Positions 23,740 to 36,821 of a stretch of DNA of 38,354 nt are shown piece by piece. The stretch covers positions 1 through 38,354 of IMG/VR virus record IMGVR_UViG_3300046514_000499. One strand, 5' to 3'. This DNA is from a virus. Every line of letters starts with the position of its first letter. Within the stretch, counting starts at the first letter, position 1. The notes under the pieces were generated by a model that was given only the letters and a program-made list of their open reading frames with translations, did no database searches and was not told where the DNA came from. A program made the position numbers and the translations under genes.

Positions 23740-23769
23740 CACGACGCGCGTCGACGGACGATCGGCCAG

Positions 23770-23798
23770 ACGGCCGGCGAGTCTCCCTCGCCGGCCGT
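23770..23798 (+). terminator. Rho-independent-type terminator
   Basis: Perfect 12-bp arms ACGGCCGGCGAG (23770-23781) and CTCGCCGGCCGT (23787-23798) with a five-base loop, followed by TTGTGTGT. It lies 30 bases after the stop of the 116-residue gene. Confidence 0.65.
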
Positions 23799-23805
23799 TT
23801 GTGTG

Positions 23806-23879
23806 TACGTCGATCGACGTAGCCGTTACGTCGATCGACGTGACGGTCGACCAGGATGAGAACTACGTCGATCGACGTA
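23806..23879. repeat. Three copies of the palindrome TACGTCGATCGACGTA
   Basis: Perfect 16-bp copies at 23806-23821 and 23864-23879, and a 14-bp core copy (ACGTCGATCGACGT) at 23828-23841. Start-to-start spacing of the cores is 21 and 37 bases; 21 is two helical turns, as for cooperative binding of a dimeric protein on one face of the DNA. Confidence 0.85.
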
Positions 23880-23914
23880 ACGGCCGGCCGGCCGCGCGCG
23901 GGAGTGTGGCCGGC

Positions 23915-23966
23915 GAGCTGGCGTGAGCTGGCGTGAGCTGGCGTGAGTCCTTGACGGAGCTGGCGT
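23915..23966. repeat. Tandem 10-bp repeats GAGCTGGCGT
   Basis: Three adjoining copies at 23915-23924, 23925-23934 and 23935-23944, and a fourth at 23957-23966 after a GAGTCCTTGACG interruption. One helical turn per repeat, an iteron-like arrangement. Confidence 0.85.
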
Positions 23967-23973
23967 GACTCGC

Positions 23974-24059
23974 CGGCCGGTCGACCTCGCCGGCCGGCCG
24001 GCCAGCTGGTCGCCAATCACCGATCGGTGATTGGCACGGCCGGCGAGGTCGACCGGCCG
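23974..24059. repeat. 23-bp inverted repeat flanking a perfect 24-bp palindrome
   Basis: The outer arms 23974-23996 and 24037-24059 are exact reverse complements (left arm begins CGGCCGGTCGACC). Between them a perfect 24-bp palindrome occupies 24012-24035 (half-site GCCAATCACCGA), less GC-rich than its surroundings. The centres differ by 7 bases, so either the large cruciform or the small palindrome can form. An operator, partition site or origin structure is possible. Confidence 0.85.
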
Positions 24060-24151
24060 CCGGCCGTGGTTGTCGCGCGTCGACGCGTCGACGTCGACGC
24101 CTCGCCGGCCGTCTCGCCGGCCAGCTGGGGCCAGCGCGCACGCCTCGCCAG

Positions 24152-24189
24152 CTCGCCGGCCGGCGAGTCACGGCCGGCCATGGCCGGCC
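24152..24189. repeat. Two further long palindromes
   Basis: A perfect 16-bp palindrome at 24152-24167 (half-site CTCGCCGG) and a perfect 18-bp palindrome at 24172-24189 (half-site GGCCGGCCA). Both are built from the GGCCGG words that dominate this block, so they may be compositional rather than specific sites. Confidence 0.75.
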
Positions 24190-24313
24190 ACGAGCATGCA
24201 ATAGCCGTGCCAAAGAAATGGCCGGCGAATTGTCCGACGGGCCCGGGGGGAGGGGGCTCGTCCATGGCCAGTGTTCGACGCAAATTTTTTACCCCTCCCT
24301 CTCCCACGCTCGC

Positions 24314-24576
24314 CTGATTACGCGATTGTAGCTGGACGGCCTGCTGGCGTTCATGCTAGCCTCCCCTCTAGCACGTCGTCGCTCCGCCCGCCGACTCCGC
24401 CGGTCACTCCCGCGCCGACGTCAGCGGCGTTCAACGACGGGGACGACTCCAGGGACGCAACACTCGCCTGCTGCCTCCTGTTGAAGTCGACCCCAGGCGC
24501 TCCGCGGGCCGACTCCGACGACGTGCTGTTCGTCCACCGGCGTCCGCCGGCCTCCACTTGACAATCGTAATTACAG
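24314..24576. repeat. 263-bp element with imperfect terminal inverted repeats
   Basis: The left end (24314-24381) and the reverse complement of the right end (24516-24576) align over their whole length. Shared blocks are CTG at the tips, ATTACG and ATTGT near the outside, TGGA and GGCC in the middle, and a perfect 12-bp AGCACGTCGTCG (24370-24381; complement at 24516-24527) on the inside. TCGC lies directly outside both ends (24310-24313 and 24577-24580), like a short target duplication. No transposase is encoded. It could be a MITE-like insertion or simply a long regulatory hairpin. Confidence 0.5.
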
Positions 24577-24587
24577 TCGCGTATCGT
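24558..24587 (+). promoter_or_regulatory. Promoter TTGACA-N18-TATCGT, likely driver of the late genes
   Basis: Consensus -35 TTGACA (24558-24563), 18-base spacer, TATCGT (24582-24587). The predicted start near 24594 would give a leader of about 285 bases before ATG 24880. The -35 lies inside the right terminal repeat of the 263-bp element. Confidence 0.62.
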
Positions 24588-24589
24588 TC

Positions 24590-24829
24590 GAGGCGTCGCG
24601 CGTGCGGGATGGGAACCGCCCGAACATGTCGCCCAGGCACATCTGTCCAAGGATGAGCCGAAGAGCTGGGGAGCCAGGCGGTACGAACGGGCCCCACCGA
24701 CGCGCGCGACGCTTCAGAGAGTCCACCGTTCGGGGGCATGGCTGCACCTGACCGTGGCCAGTCGCGGGGGCTGAGGGCTGCCCGGCGACCGGGGAACACC
24801 ACGGACGGTTCGGTGGACTCTTTGAGGCG
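24590..24829 (+). ncRNA. Structured leader or small RNA with two long, partly exclusive stems
   Basis: Stem A pairs 24590-24604 with 24701-24715 (15 bp, two G-U). Stem B pairs 24710-24728 with 24811-24829 (19 bp, two G-U). Within B, CCGTGG (24752-24757) can pair with CCACGG (24799-24804) and GTCGC (24761-24765) with GCGAC (24785-24789). All four non-Watson-Crick positions are G-U when read on the plus strand and would be A-C on the minus strand, which favours a plus-strand RNA. Stems A and B compete for 24710-24715, since GAGGCG occurs at both 24590 and 24824. It follows the promoter directly and precedes the first late gene by 50 bases. No known RNA family is recognised. Confidence 0.6.
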
Positions 24830-24879
24830 GCTGAGCGACGCTGGCATCCGCTGTGCAACCACCTGAGTCGCCCACGACC

Positions 24880-25191
24880 ATGAACGTCTACAAGGTACCC
24901 GACGCCATCGACCTGGCGACGCCGACCCACCTCTATTGGGTGGCGCTGTCCCATGTCGACTGGGCCGAGCCCAAGGTCATGGTCGTGCGGGGCGGTCAGG
25001 ACCTCGAGGCGGTGGTCCGCCTCATCGAGGGCGCCGACTGGATCCCGCCGGGGGTCGAGTACGGGATCGAGCGCGTCGCCCCGGTCGGCGATTGCTGCGC
25101 GACGCATGGGAAGCTCTTCGCGCTCCGGCCGGGGGTGCTGCATCCCCTCAGCATGCTCGAGGACGAAGGGATTCATGTCCACGCGGTCTAA
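24880..25191 (+). CDS. Hypothetical protein, first late gene, 103 aa
   Basis: Start ATG 24880 (MNVYKVPDAIDLATPTHLYW) is the natural beginning of the conserved-looking part; an extension to 24853 is possible. The protein alternates strands and helices (KVMVVRGGQDLEAVVRLIEG) and has two adjacent cysteines in VGDCCATHG. There is no strong ribosome-binding site, so translation may depend on the folded leader upstream. It overlaps the J-domain gene by 17 bases. Family unknown. Confidence 0.68.
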   Translation: MNVYKVPDAIDLATPTHLYWVALSHVDWAEPKVMVVRGGQDLEAVVRLIEGADWIPPGVEYGIERVAPVGDCCATHGKLFALRPGVLHPLSMLEDEGIHVHAV

Positions 25192-25819
25192 CGGCGAGTC
25201 GACGGCCCAGCGGTATCCGCTGTCGTGGCCGACCGGGTGGCGCCGCACCCCGGTGGGGACGCGGCGCCACGGACGCTTCGGCATCAAGCGCGCGGGGGAC
25301 TATCGCCGGCCAATCACCGTGGAGGTCGCCCGCGTGCGAGTCCTCACGGAACTGTCACGCCTCGGGGTGGCGCACGGCGACGCGCTCCTCTCGACGAACC
25401 TGCGGGTCCGCCTCGATGGCTCGCCCTACAGTGACGCCAAGCCGGAGGGCGGTGACCCCGGCGTGGCCGTCTACTTTCGGCTCGACGGCAAGGACCGCGT
25501 CTTGGCGTGTGACCGCTGGACGACGGTCGCCGATAACCTCGCCGCGGTGGCGGCGCACATCGAGGCGATTCGCGCCGTGGACCGCTACGGCGTCGGCACG
25601 CTCGATCAAGCCTTCGCCGGCTATGTGGGCCTGCCCGCCAAGGGCACGACGTGGAAGACGACGCTCGGGTTTGCGGTCGATGCCGCCCCGACCCCCGACG
25701 AGATTCAAGCCGCCTTCCGCCAGCGCGCGCGCACCGCGCACCCTGATGTGGCCGACGGGAGCCATGACGCCATGGCCTCGCTCGTCGCGGCGCGTGATGA
25801 GGGACTCAGTGCCGTCTAG
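25175..25819 (+). CDS. J-domain (DnaJ-like) phage protein, 214 aa
   Basis: The C terminus (about residues 172-214) is a J-domain core, TPDEIQAAFRQRARTAHPDV, with the HPD tripeptide (189-191) that stimulates Hsp70/DnaK ATPase. The N-terminal domain (about 12-155: YPLSWPTGWRRTP, SSTNLR-like LLSTNLRVRLDGSPYS, DPGVAVYFRLDGKDRVLACD, DNLAAVAAHIEAIRAVDRYG) is the one usually found in J-domain proteins of phages and prophages. The J-domain lacks the glycine-rich and zinc regions of classic DnaJ. It may recruit host DnaK to virion assembly or DNA replication. Start ATG 25175 has a GAAGGG site. Confidence 0.85.
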   Translation: MSTRSNGESTAQRYPLSWPTGWRRTPVGTRRHGRFGIKRAGDYRRPITVEVARVRVLTELSRLGVAHGDALLSTNLRVRLDGSPYSDAKPEGGDPGVAVYFRLDGKDRVLACDRWTTVADNLAAVAAHIEAIRAVDRYGVGTLDQAFAGYVGLPAKGTTWKTTLGFAVDAAPTPDEIQAAFRQRARTAHPDVADGSHDAMASLVAARDEGLSAV

Positions 25820-26797: not shown

Positions 26798-27625
26798 ATG
26801 GCGCTGCGTCCGCCTCTGTCGTTGGTCTCGCGCCGGTCCCGTGACGAAGGCGACCGCTTGGTGTCCACCGCCACCTACGCCCAGCCGGGGGCGGTCGCCG
26901 CGGTGCGCGCCTTTGAAGCCGCGGTCGGTGGCCGCGTGAAACTCATCGAGGCCATGCTCCAGGCGCCGCCGTCGAGCGCGCTCGACTATGTGGTCGGCCT
27001 CATCGCCGACCCCCGGGAAGACGCGACCGATCTGGCGGTCCTCTGTGCGCGCGGGGGGGTGACGCTCGGGGAACTCCTCGAGGCGTTCAAGCAAGGCACC
27101 TACGCCAAGATGGCGGTCCTCTCCGTGTACCGGCTGGCGCAGGCGGCGCCGGCGGCGGTCGAGGATCTGGCCACCCGGTCGGCGCCGTACGACGAGACGT
27201 GTCGCGCGTGCAACGGCACCGGCAGTCTCGCCCCCGCTGACGCGGGGGCCGGGGCGCGTCCCGCGCCCTGCGAGACCTGTAACGCGCTCGGCACGATCCG
27301 CCAGCTCCCCGAACTCGAGCGCCAGAAACTCTTCTTCGAGATGACGAAGCTCGTGAGCAAGGGTGGGGGCGGAATTACCACCAACGTGGGGGTGAATGTC
27401 GCCCCCGCGGCGCCCCTCATCCCGTCGCAGTCCTACGATCGGCTGATCACCGCGGTGGATCGGATCCTGTATGGGAAGGCGGTCGAGGCCGACGCCGACG
27501 TCATCGACGTCGAGACTCCCCCGGAGGATTCGCCCGACATGACAGCCGCGACACCGGCGTCCAACCGAAACCTTACCTGTGATACAACGACCGCACCCTC
27601 AGCGGAGTCGGAGTCATCGTCATGA
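26798..27625 (+). CDS. DnaJ-type zinc-finger phage protein, possible small terminase, 275 aa
   Basis: Carries two CxxCxGxG-like knuckles as in the DnaJ zinc domain: CRACNGTG (C135, C138) and CETCNALG (C158, C161), separated by a low-complexity loop. The N-terminal 120 residues are helical (AVAAVRAFEAAVGGRVKLIE, GVTLGELLEAFKQGTYAKMA) and could be a DNA-binding helix-turn-helix; the following region (KGGGGITTNVGVNVA) is beta/glycine-rich. Position upstream of the large terminase and this architecture suggest a small terminase or a chaperone-like helper; neither is proven. ATG 26798 has no Shine-Dalgarno but a TAGACT box seven bases before it; GTG 26861 is an alternative start. Confidence 0.7.
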   Translation: MALRPPLSLVSRRSRDEGDRLVSTATYAQPGAVAAVRAFEAAVGGRVKLIEAMLQAPPSSALDYVVGLIADPREDATDLAVLCARGGVTLGELLEAFKQGTYAKMAVLSVYRLAQAAPAAVEDLATRSAPYDETCRACNGTGSLAPADAGAGARPAPCETCNALGTIRQLPELERQKLFFEMTKLVSKGGGGITTNVGVNVAPAAPLIPSQSYDRLITAVDRILYGKAVEADADVIDVETPPEDSPDMTAATPASNRNLTCDTTTAPSAESESSS

Positions 27626-31303: not shown

Positions 31304-32617
31304 GTGTTCCACCCCGAGGTCATCGACCGCGCTGAACGCGCGGTCAGTGCGTCCCTGAAGGGGACGCTGCCCGGCGGCCGCCTCGTCCGCCGCTCCCTCG
31401 ACGAACGCTGGTCCATGCGTGACCAGCTCGCCTCAGCCGCCCCGAAGAAAAAGGGCGAGCCCGCGGCGCGCCCCCTCACCTCGTCCGAGAGCGACTTCAT
31501 CACGCACGAGCTGCTCCTCGCCAAGCTCGACTACCGCTACTGGAGTGACGCCTGGGCCGTCATCACCAAAGAGACCCAGGACGCCGCGCCCATCCATCCG
31601 CGCTGGGCGAGCCAACAGCTCTTCCTCGACCACGTCGCCGCCATGGAGATCGACCAGTTCCGCGCCGGCAGCCAGAACGGCGTCCTCGTGAACGTCGGCA
31701 AAGCGCGCCAGCTGGGCCTCTCGACCGAACTCGAGGTCATCATGGCGCACGGCGCGACGACGCAAACGGCGCTTCGGGGACTCGTCGCCGCCGACGTCGA
31801 GGACCAGTCGAAGTACCTCTTCAGCCTCTTCGAGGGCATCGTCAAGGAACTCCCGTGGTGGCTGCTCCCGACCCTCGGGGCCTACGACACGGGCCGCTTC
31901 TGGTCGACCCTGACCAACCGGACGGAAGTCCGCACGGCCTGGGGCAAGTCGTCTCGCGGCGGCCTGGCCGACGACGCCAAAGCCAAGGGCAACATCGGCC
32001 GCGGTAAAACCTTCGGCCGGGTGCACCTGTCGGAACTCTCGACCTGGGAGAAGCCCGACCAGATTGACGACGGCCTCATCCCGGCCATCCCGCGTCGCCC
32101 GCGGTCCTTTGCCGGCTTCGAGTCGACCGCCAAAGGTCGGCACGACTGGTGGCACACGCACTGGACGGCGACCGCGCGGGGGAAGACCCGGTTCAGGAAC
32201 ATCTTCATCCCGTGGTACGTCGAGCCCGAGAAGTACTGGGCCGTGCCGACGTCCCTCACCTGGCAGCCCGACGCCGGCACGCTCGCCCATGCGGTGGCCG
32301 TCGAGCGCGAGTCGCCCGAGTGGCTCTTCGGCAAGACCATCCGGCTCACCCGCGAGCAGCTCGCCTGGTACGAGCAGACGCGCGACATGTACACCGAGAA
32401 GGGCGACCTGTACAAGTTTTACGAGGAGTACCCGGCCACCCCCGCCGAGATGTTTCAGTACTCGGGCCGCTCGGTCTTTACCGCCGCGACGCTCGAAGCC
32501 GTCCGCCGGCAGGAGACCGCGCCGCGGATCCTCAAGATTGAGCCGGCCAAAGACATCGCGACCCTCAGAGCGTGGGAACGCTCTGAGGAGGGGCGCTCAG
32601 GTGCCCCGCGGCCATGA
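31304..32617 (+). CDS. terL: Terminase large subunit, ATPase part (split gene)
   Basis: DNA-packaging motor ATPase. The terminase-type Walker A KARQLGLST is at residues 133-141, and the Walker B/catalytic glutamate strand is GRVHLSELSTWEK (E244). Further terminase hallmarks follow: SFAGFESTAKGRHDWWHTHW, FRNIFIPWYVEPEKYW and YEEYPATPAEMFQYSGRSVF. The gene then stops at 32617, before the nuclease domain, which is in the next gene. GTG 31304 has no Shine-Dalgarno but a TAGACT box six bases upstream. The last 60 bases hold two hairpins (32563-32607), unusual for coding sequence. Normally both domains are one protein of 450-750 residues; here they total 755. Confidence 0.88.
   Translation: MFHPEVIDRAERAVSASLKGTLPGGRLVRRSLDERWSMRDQLASAAPKKKGEPAARPLTSSESDFITHELLLAKLDYRYWSDAWAVITKETQDAAPIHPRWASQQLFLDHVAAMEIDQFRAGSQNGVLVNVGKARQLGLSTELEVIMAHGATTQTALRGLVAADVEDQSKYLFSLFEGIVKELPWWLLPTLGAYDTGRFWSTLTNRTEVRTAWGKSSRGGLADDAKAKGNIGRGKTFGRVHLSELSTWEKPDQIDDGLIPAIPRRPRSFAGFESTAKGRHDWWHTHWTATARGKTRFRNIFIPWYVEPEKYWAVPTSLTWQPDAGTLAHAVAVERESPEWLFGKTIRLTREQLAWYEQTRDMYTEKGDLYKFYEEYPATPAEMFQYSGRSVFTAATLEAVRRQETAPRILKIEPAKDIATLRAWERSEEGRSGAPRP
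32563..32607 (+). other. Two tandem hairpins at the terminase ATPase/nuclease junction
   Basis: First hairpin: perfect 11-bp arms CCTCAGAGCGT (32563-32573) and ACGCTCTGAGG (32578-32588) closed by GGGA, a GNRA tetraloop. Second: GGGGC (32590-32594) and GCCCC (32603-32607). They end seven bases before ATG 32614 and would place the nuclease ribosome-binding site (GAGGAGGGG, 32585-32593) inside the structure. Confidence 0.75.
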
Positions 32618-33570
32618 GCGAGCCGCTTCTCCTCCCAGCCGGCATGGGCTTCCGCGTCCCGTCGGCGCAGGAACTCCGCGAGACCGCCGAGGCGACCTCG
32701 CTCGGTCTCGACCTGCTCCTCTGCTACGAACCCCCGCGCCGGCGTGGCACCTACCGCTACGTCATCGGCGCCGACATCGGCGACGGCCTCGGGCTCGATC
32801 GCTCGGTCGCCCAAGTCGTCCGGCAGGGATCGATCGACGAGCCCGACGAGCAGGTCGCCGAGTTTGCCTCGGACACCATCGCGCCGGCCGAGTTCGCGTC
32901 GATTCTCCTCGCGCTCGGCGACTGGTACCGCGACGAGTCCGGGTACGAGGCGCTCGTCGCCATCGAGTGCAATAACCACGGCCTGTCGACGCAGGATACG
33001 CTGCAGCTCCACCTCGGCTACACCCACTTCTACCGCTGGGAGTACTACGACTCGGCCGACCCGTCGGCGCGGTTCTCGACCAAAATCGGCTGGATGACGA
33101 CGACGCGCACCCGCCCGATCCTCCTCGACAAGTTCCGCACGGCGCTGACGACCCGCGACGCGGTCACCGGCCTCCCGGACCTCATCACCCACAGCCCGCA
33201 CCTGCACGAGGAACTCAAAGACTTCCAGACGCAGGGCGCGCTCTGGGAAGCCGAGGCGGCCAAGGGCGCCCATGACGACCGCATCATGGCCGCCGCCATC
33301 GCCTACTACTGCACCTGGCGGCTTCGCGCGGGGGAGCAAGAGCCGCTCGAGGACCGACGTCGCCGTCGGTCAGAACAAAAGGCCGCGCTCGTCGTGGCGG
33401 CCGACCGGGCCGCCGCCGGCACCCCCGACTTTCGCAACACGGCCTGCACGGCCGAGGAAGCCACGTCGCTCCCGACCGGCCCGGACGCCACTGAGGCGGC
33501 CGACGAAGAGGCGTTGTATGATCTGCGCGCGACGGACGTGAGTGCCCATGACGGGTTCTTCACTATCTAG
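32614..33570 (+). CDS. terL: Terminase large subunit, nuclease part (split gene)
   Basis: RNase-H-fold headful/cos nuclease that cuts concatemeric DNA. Catalytic acids are visible in YVIGADIGDGLGLDRSVAQV (D54 and nearby), ALVAIECNNHG (E118) and GAHDDRIMAAAIAYY (D221/D222), the standard DE...D set of large terminases. ATG 32614 overlaps the ATPase stop as ATGA, so translation is coupled. The last 70 residues are an acidic/alanine-rich tail. Together with the previous gene it forms a two-polypeptide terminase; a sequencing frameshift is unlikely because the overlap is a clean stop-start and both new ends look natural. Confidence 0.87.
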   Translation: MSEPLLLPAGMGFRVPSAQELRETAEATSLGLDLLLCYEPPRRRGTYRYVIGADIGDGLGLDRSVAQVVRQGSIDEPDEQVAEFASDTIAPAEFASILLALGDWYRDESGYEALVAIECNNHGLSTQDTLQLHLGYTHFYRWEYYDSADPSARFSTKIGWMTTTRTRPILLDKFRTALTTRDAVTGLPDLITHSPHLHEELKDFQTQGALWEAEAAKGAHDDRIMAAAIAYYCTWRLRAGEQEPLEDRRRRRSEQKAALVVAADRAAAGTPDFRNTACTAEEATSLPTGPDATEAADEEALYDLRATDVSAHDGFFTI

Positions 33571-36791: not shown

Positions 36792-36821
36792 TTGACACAG
36801 CCACTATTAGTCGCGCACAAT
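36792..36821 (+). promoter_or_regulatory. Promoter TTGACA-N18-CACAAT
   Basis: Consensus TTGACA (36792-36797), 18-base spacer, CACAAT (36816-36821), in the only gap of this late region. The start codon ATG 36830 is eight bases downstream, so the transcript would be almost leaderless. It would boost the small basic proteins and perhaps the capsid genes beyond. Confidence 0.62.

Follow-up and report, generated by a model that had tools for sequence, protein, structure and literature searches.

Control of transcript elongation by phage RNA alone rests on very few examples, the put RNA of phage HK022 among them. Put-type RNAs suppress termination through the zinc-binding domain of the RNA polymerase beta' subunit. 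With phage lambda, the strong promoter pR' directs the synthesis of a leader of approximately 200 nt (6S RNA) ahead of the late operon, which is controlled by Q antitermination. Structured RNAs encoded by phages also include the pRNA of phi29. The HK022 put RNA, a pair of stem-loops with which the transcript begins, is active over distances of at least 10 kb (PMC9378689), and abundant non-coding RNAs without an obvious terminator are produced by the cluster A mycobacteriophages (PMC5712189).

The DNA analyzed here, referred to in its entirety as the window, is a linear 38.4-kb virus record from IMG/VR (IMGVR_UViG_3300046514_000499) in which a non-coding stretch extends from 23.74 kb to 24880, where a rightward operon opens with its first gene. 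A preliminary description had placed within this stretch a structured, plus-strand RNA that followed a TTGACA-N18-TATCGT promoter, preceded the late genes, resembled no known riboswitch or phage RNA, and could switch between two competing stems; as detailed below, each of these proposals stood with the exception of the switch. The promoter (Table 1) is part of a 32-nt block, TTGACAATCGTAATTACAGTCGCGTATCGTTC, that is identical in all seven contigs reaching it, whereas the sequence 5' of the block diverges among relatives. The palindrome GTAATTAC within this block is a possible operator. Relatives were sought using the adjacent 103-aa protein as the query; nine IMG/VR contigs were matched, seven of which contain the full leader, as confirmed independently by DNA patterns, and whenever a contig spans the leader, the same gene follows it. 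The RNA ends approximately 50 nt before this gene, the first of the late operon, and the intervening spacer contains neither a Shine-Dalgarno-like sequence nor a U-run terminator; a possible small hairpin within it, GCGAC/GUCGC, is invariant among relatives. The 103-aa protein has no match in Pfam, PHROG or NCBIfam, and its structure model is of low confidence (pLDDT 63.5).

The leader, of approximately 240 nt, is organized as two back-to-back branched domains, P1 and P2. Like putL and putR of HK022, it presents two consecutive stem-loop domains beside a promoter, with which the transcript of a phage operon opens (PMC9378689); in the leader both are predicted and supported by covariation, and the pair begins directly after the promoter. 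The put RNAs are only about 70 nt in length, however, with simple bulged stems bearing one hairpin each, and they serve early operons, whereas both domains of the leader are branched and it heads a late operon; judged on size and shape, it is outside the put family. The leader resembles that of lambda pR' in lying behind a strong promoter and ahead of a late operon, but in lambda a terminator closes the leader and Q works through the DNA, whereas here the RNA structure is conserved and a terminator is not. No intrinsic terminator of the kind found at pR' or in attenuators was detected at the end of the leader, nor any terminator-like site elsewhere on the plus strand between 23.5 and 25.5 kb; the window has UUU after the P2 core, and two relatives, L003 and L007, have no U-run there. 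The preliminary description had allowed for an attenuator or a small RNA, and the absence of a conserved terminator argues against both. No convincing Q protein was found in the window, the only candidate being a weak zinc-finger match (E 0.008). As a non-coding phage transcript without an obvious terminator, the leader is also reminiscent of the RNAs of cluster A mycobacteriophages (PMC5712189), but the most abundant of those is located at the right genome end and does not head the late operon, and no sequence in common with them was found in the phage collection searched. The pRNA of phi29 is similar in size; the leader differs from it in having no Rfam match.

The two stems described initially, of 15 bp (24590-24604/24701-24715) and 19 bp (the basal stem of P2), were both recovered. 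Among 1000 dinucleotide shuffles of 24540-24900, a helix of at least 15 bp arose in nine, one of 19 bp in none, and both together in none. The two helices noted earlier inside the second stem are predicted and conserved, and the first stem also encloses several helices that had gone unmentioned. P1 is built as a long basal stem around P1b, P1b' and two hairpins, and P2 as a stem of 19-20 bp around the hairpin P2b and the arm P2c-P2d; each allele, when folded singly, gives this same architecture. The core of the P1 basal stem is paired in all alleles, and its outermost 2 bp only in those of the window type. Relative to shuffles, the whole region folded with a moderate z-score of -2.2 for the window and of -2.7 to -3.1 for relatives, and a cluster of DNA palindromes at 23.76-24.24 kb gave, on either strand, the most extreme fold scores in the window, far beyond those of the leader. 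Folding energy was consequently insufficient as proof of an RNA, and comparison with relatives was needed.

Table 1. Positions of the leader RNA, its helices and adjacent features in the window.
Feature	Position	Strand	Pairs with	Remarks
TTGTCCG + GC-rich stretch ... AATTTTTT DNA element	24228-24300			also at L057 4850, L058 3333, L062 1788, L063 6260
Promoter TTGACA-N18-TATCGT	24558-24587	+		sole consensus promoter in 23.5-25.5 kb
GTAATTAC	24567-24574	.		perfect 8-bp palindrome in -35/-10 interval, inside invariant block; read from sequence
P1 domain	24592-24713	+
P1 basal stem, 5' arm	24592-24607	+	24697-24713
P1b, 5' arm	24618-24622	+	24688-24692	three pairs altered on both sides
P1b', 5' arm	24625-24633	+	24677-24685	one pair altered on both sides, three by G-U
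P1c hairpin	24636-24659	+	24636-24644 with 24651-24659	loop GUCCAA in window, UUCG in L002, L003, L007
GGAUGAGCCGAAGAGCUGGGGAGCC	24651-24676	+		P1c 3' side, junction and P1d hairpin (24667-24676); identical in 7 of 7 contigs
P1b', 3' arm	24677-24685	+
P1b, 3' arm	24688-24692	+
P1 basal stem, 3' arm	24697-24713	+
P2 domain	24710-24829	+
P2 basal stem, 5' arm	24710-24728	+	24811-24829
P2b hairpin	24730-24751	+	24730-24738 with 24743-24751	nearly invariant
P2c, 5' arm	24752-24757	+	24799-24804	CCGUGG with CCACGG; two pairs altered on both sides
P2d hairpin	24758-24792	+		three pairs altered on both sides
P2c, 3' arm	24799-24804	+
P2 basal stem, 3' arm	24811-24829	+
Spacer, P2 to first start codon	24830-24879	+		conserved; matches relatives at 45-47 of 49 sites
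First late-operon gene, 103 aa	24880-25191	+		homologues 89-96% identical in 9 contigs

Across distinct alleles, 12 base pairs (four in P1 and eight in P2) are altered on both sides and yet still paired; controls in which the partners were slid by 1-3 columns contained zero or one such pair. Between the window and L002, for example, GCCCG/CGGGC of P1b becomes UCGUCG/CGACGA, with pair changes of C-G to U-A, C-G to G-C, and G-C to U-A, and in L003 the CCGUGG/CCACGG of P2c is replaced by CCAGGG/CCUUGG. Both arms of the P2 basal stem are rewritten in L003 and L007 to form a perfect stem of 20 bp, one of its pairs being an insertion. Within the domain alignments 97-98% of cells are paired. An equal outcome was reached by 2 of 500 and 0 of 500 shuffles, and these counts are supportive and not probabilities, because the structure was partly picked from the same sequences and the alignments contain three to five distinct rows from few independent alleles. 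Divergence of the arms without compensation had been named at the outset as an outcome that would count against an RNA; in the homologues the arms do diverge, with compensation, and the keeping of pairs where bases differ points to a real RNA. The family sampled is a single clade in which five sequences are distinct and the allele states number three or four; the covariation consequently rests on few events. From these comparisons, the existence of a real structured leader RNA at the head of a phage late operon is well supported.

The preliminary description had further argued for the plus strand on the grounds that each of the four non-Watson-Crick positions reads G-U there. This was verified; taken alone, four such positions in the window are weak evidence, by inference about one chance in eight for transitions. 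The plus-strand reading is strengthened by the one-sided changes of relatives, which agree with it: 11 keep the pair on the plus strand, compared to 4 on the minus strand. The plus-strand consensus is also the more stable (P2, -65.1 vs. -52.0; P1, -57.5 vs. -55.5), and a minus-strand RNA, with its weaker fold and weaker covariation, was rejected. Alleles differ by substitutions and by indels of 1-2 nt, and because of the latter the open frames in the leader are broken; two candidate small genes (ATG at 24654 and at 24738) were discarded as their frames shift or stop between alleles. No conserved frame was found, in keeping with the original statement that no protein gene overlaps the RNA.

The proposed switch fared differently. 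GAGGCG does occur at both 24590 and 24824, and CGCUUC at 24710-24715 of the window can pair with either copy, but the resulting folds differ only in this 6-bp stretch, with predicted energies of -128.3 kcal/mol (P1 extended) and -126.8 kcal/mol (P2 extended) compared to a minimum of -129.0 kcal/mol. In L002, L003 and L007, the 5' GAGG that would partner 24712-24715 is replaced by CCCT, this copy reading CCCTCG and being unable to compete in full, and P2 is kept. A competing-stem switch was rejected because these three relatives lack the competing 5' GAGG while retaining P2; mutually exclusive, jointly conserved folds were not found among the window and its relatives. As judged from the alleles, the alternative pairing is branch migration between adjacent helices and not a conserved switch.

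Searches for the leader elsewhere were uniformly negative. Rfam 15 gave no match at the gathering threshold across the whole window; with the leader alone only chance matches to animal families were obtained (E 0.7-2.9, far below threshold), and with that of L003 none. No homologue was found in 50,697 phage records (a single 32-base match was due to chance), DNA similarity to the leader in plasmid and phage records was absent or at chance level, an exact 24-base core was absent from 84,980 prokaryote genomes, and no prophages were found by way of the terminase. A looser 16-base core pattern returned 11 additional contigs, each a chance match on reading. Neither the window nor the pieces of two larger relatives hold a second leader copy above chance. 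Distant relatives were found through the terminase at identities down to 40-66%, and five of them (L057, L058, L062, L063, and L067) gave no match to the leader model in the region where it is carried. Because these phages have a similar operon and lack model matches, the late operon can be run without the leader. On the records searched, the carriers are a group of uncultured phages, and the RNA is clade-specific and previously undescribed. At the equivalent position in L063 (6361-6458), past the TTGTCCG element and before the late genes begin, a stem GUGACCGAGUCG/CGACUCGGUCGC encloses two hairpins; this stem-loop (106 nt, z -2) has no sequence relation to the leader of the window and may be a parallel to it.

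The helices of the leader differ by 20-26%, far more than the 4-5% at fourfold sites of the next genes. For P2, the window and L003 show 22 differences among 94 paired positions and 3 among 28 unpaired ones, with 5% of fourfold sites differing in downstream genes; for P1, the counts between the window and L002 are 21 among 82 paired and 13 among 39 unpaired positions. In P2 it is the helices that vary and the loops and junctions that are most conserved. L002 is a recombinant: its P1 is that of L003 and its P2 that of the window. Given this mixture of alleles and the divergence of helices beyond that of downstream genes, the domains have probably been swapped as modules from a deeper pool, the usual mosaic pattern of phages. 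Quickly changing, re-paired helices set against fixed junctions in otherwise near-identical phages are unusual and raise the question of the selecting force.

With regard to function, we tentatively favor, with somewhat less than even confidence, a structured 5' leader of the late-operon transcript that would act in cis to control elongation in a put-like manner. Host RNA polymerase would probably start near 24594, a few bases past TATCGT, and the nascent RNA would fold at once, first into P1, with its long stem and three inner helices, and then into P2, with its long stem and two inner arms. Transcription would pass across the spacer into the operon and the leader, alone or together with a phage or host factor, would modify the elongating polymerase such that it reads to the end of a long, GC-rich operon, in the manner of HK022 put RNA. 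The two domains would serve as modules in which helix sequences drift or are swapped while pairing and junction sequences are kept. We infer action in cis because there is no conserved terminator before the first gene and the 50-nt spacer is conserved. The operon runs through the terminase ORFs (31304-33570) toward the window end, and the contig of a 64.6-kb relative extends approximately 30 kb beyond the point matching that end; since the next 13.5 kb (24.8-38.4 kb) yielded only one further consensus promoter, at 36792, transcription of a long operon may have to depend on one start. Points against elongation control are that put is only a third as large, that the 13.5 kb downstream showed no clear terminator for the RNA to suppress, and that distant relatives have a similar operon with no match to the leader model. 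If this reading is true, a large, covariation-supported late-operon leader would add to put another example of RNA-only elongation control, with a different structure and testable by in vitro transcription.

The rapid change of the helices is also compatible with an RNA that acts in trans or bears specificity. An independent phage RNA of approximately 240 nt (P1 and P2), made from its own strong promoter and, for example, binding a host protein or defence factor, with the late genes receiving leftover read-through, is possible but somewhat unlikely. It would suit the compact two-domain fold that begins at the promoter, helices that diversify far faster than fourfold sites around fixed junctions, and the recombined alleles of L002, and mycobacteriophages are known to make abundant small RNAs that lack a stem-loop terminator (PMC5712189); the lack of a conserved terminator past P2, with no U-run in L003 or L007, speaks against it, as do the conserved spacer and the constant identity of the gene downstream. 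We consider it unlikely that the leader is a 5' UTR governing how the late mRNA is translated or how long it persists, either by shielding its 5' end from RNase or by binding a factor that gates the first gene, which has no Shine-Dalgarno sequence. Structure at the very 5' end and a conserved spacer with a possible third hairpin toward the start codon are in its favor, but the conserved two-domain fold is more complex than a stabilizing hairpin needs to be, and with no recognizable ribosome site there is no visible sequestration. An extension of the elongation reading is rather improbable: that the leader would represent a new class of phage leader RNA, a two-module fold that modifies the elongating polymerase for all of the late operon and whose module alleles are traded among co-occurring phages, changing its specificity, for instance against host or competitor factors.

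A DNA element for packaging, replication or recombination beside the palindrome cluster, with arm changes arising by template-switch repair of quasi-palindromes, would agree with the palindrome-rich neighboring DNA and with the perfect 20-bp repeat of L003, as expected from template switching. It is very unlikely given that compensation extends to the short nested helices of 5-6 bp (P1b, P2c, and P2d), that one-sided changes favor plus-strand G-U pairs, and that loops and junctions of P2, and not its arms, are most conserved. A packaging RNA for the terminase motor, an option left open earlier that found no support, is scarcely credible despite being phage-encoded near a possible packaging site, since the absence of any Rfam match includes the phi29 pRNA family and distant phages with homologous terminases give no RNA match.

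Several features of the surrounding region are of separate interest. The large terminase subunit is seemingly split into two ORFs that overlap at ATGA (31304-32617 and 32614-33570); relatives with identities down to 36-66% match the parts separately, which suggests a long-standing split. The gene at 25175-25819 encodes a J-domain (DnaJ-like) protein of the widespread phage family phrog_9210 and is apparently swapped for other genes in L006, L007, L008, and L010, which retain the leader and first gene. Upstream of the terminase, a conserved protein (26798-27625) carries a CxxCxG zinc-finger segment that weakly resembles DnaJ, anti-TRAP, and Q-like proteins (E 0.002-0.02); it may be a small terminase subunit or a regulator.

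Upstream of the leader, the TTGTCCG...AATTTTTT element is kept ahead of the late operon even where the terminase is only 54-64% identical and the surrounding non-coding DNA unalignable, making it a candidate packaging (cos/pac) site or origin. Between this element and the leader promoter, second promoter-like sites were observed in L006, of the L006/L008/L010 group (TTGACT-N17-GATTGT), and in L007 (TTGCCT-N17-TATCGT); these are followed by cargo ORFs that differ by relative, and the window has no cargo gene. From 23740 to 24230, the window contains dense DNA palindromes and iterons, with TACGTCGATCGACGTA occurring three times and GAGCTGGCGT four times, together with a 26-nt inverted repeat of 96% identity and the perfect palindrome GCCAATCACCGATCGGTGATTGGC, an arrangement that appears origin-like.
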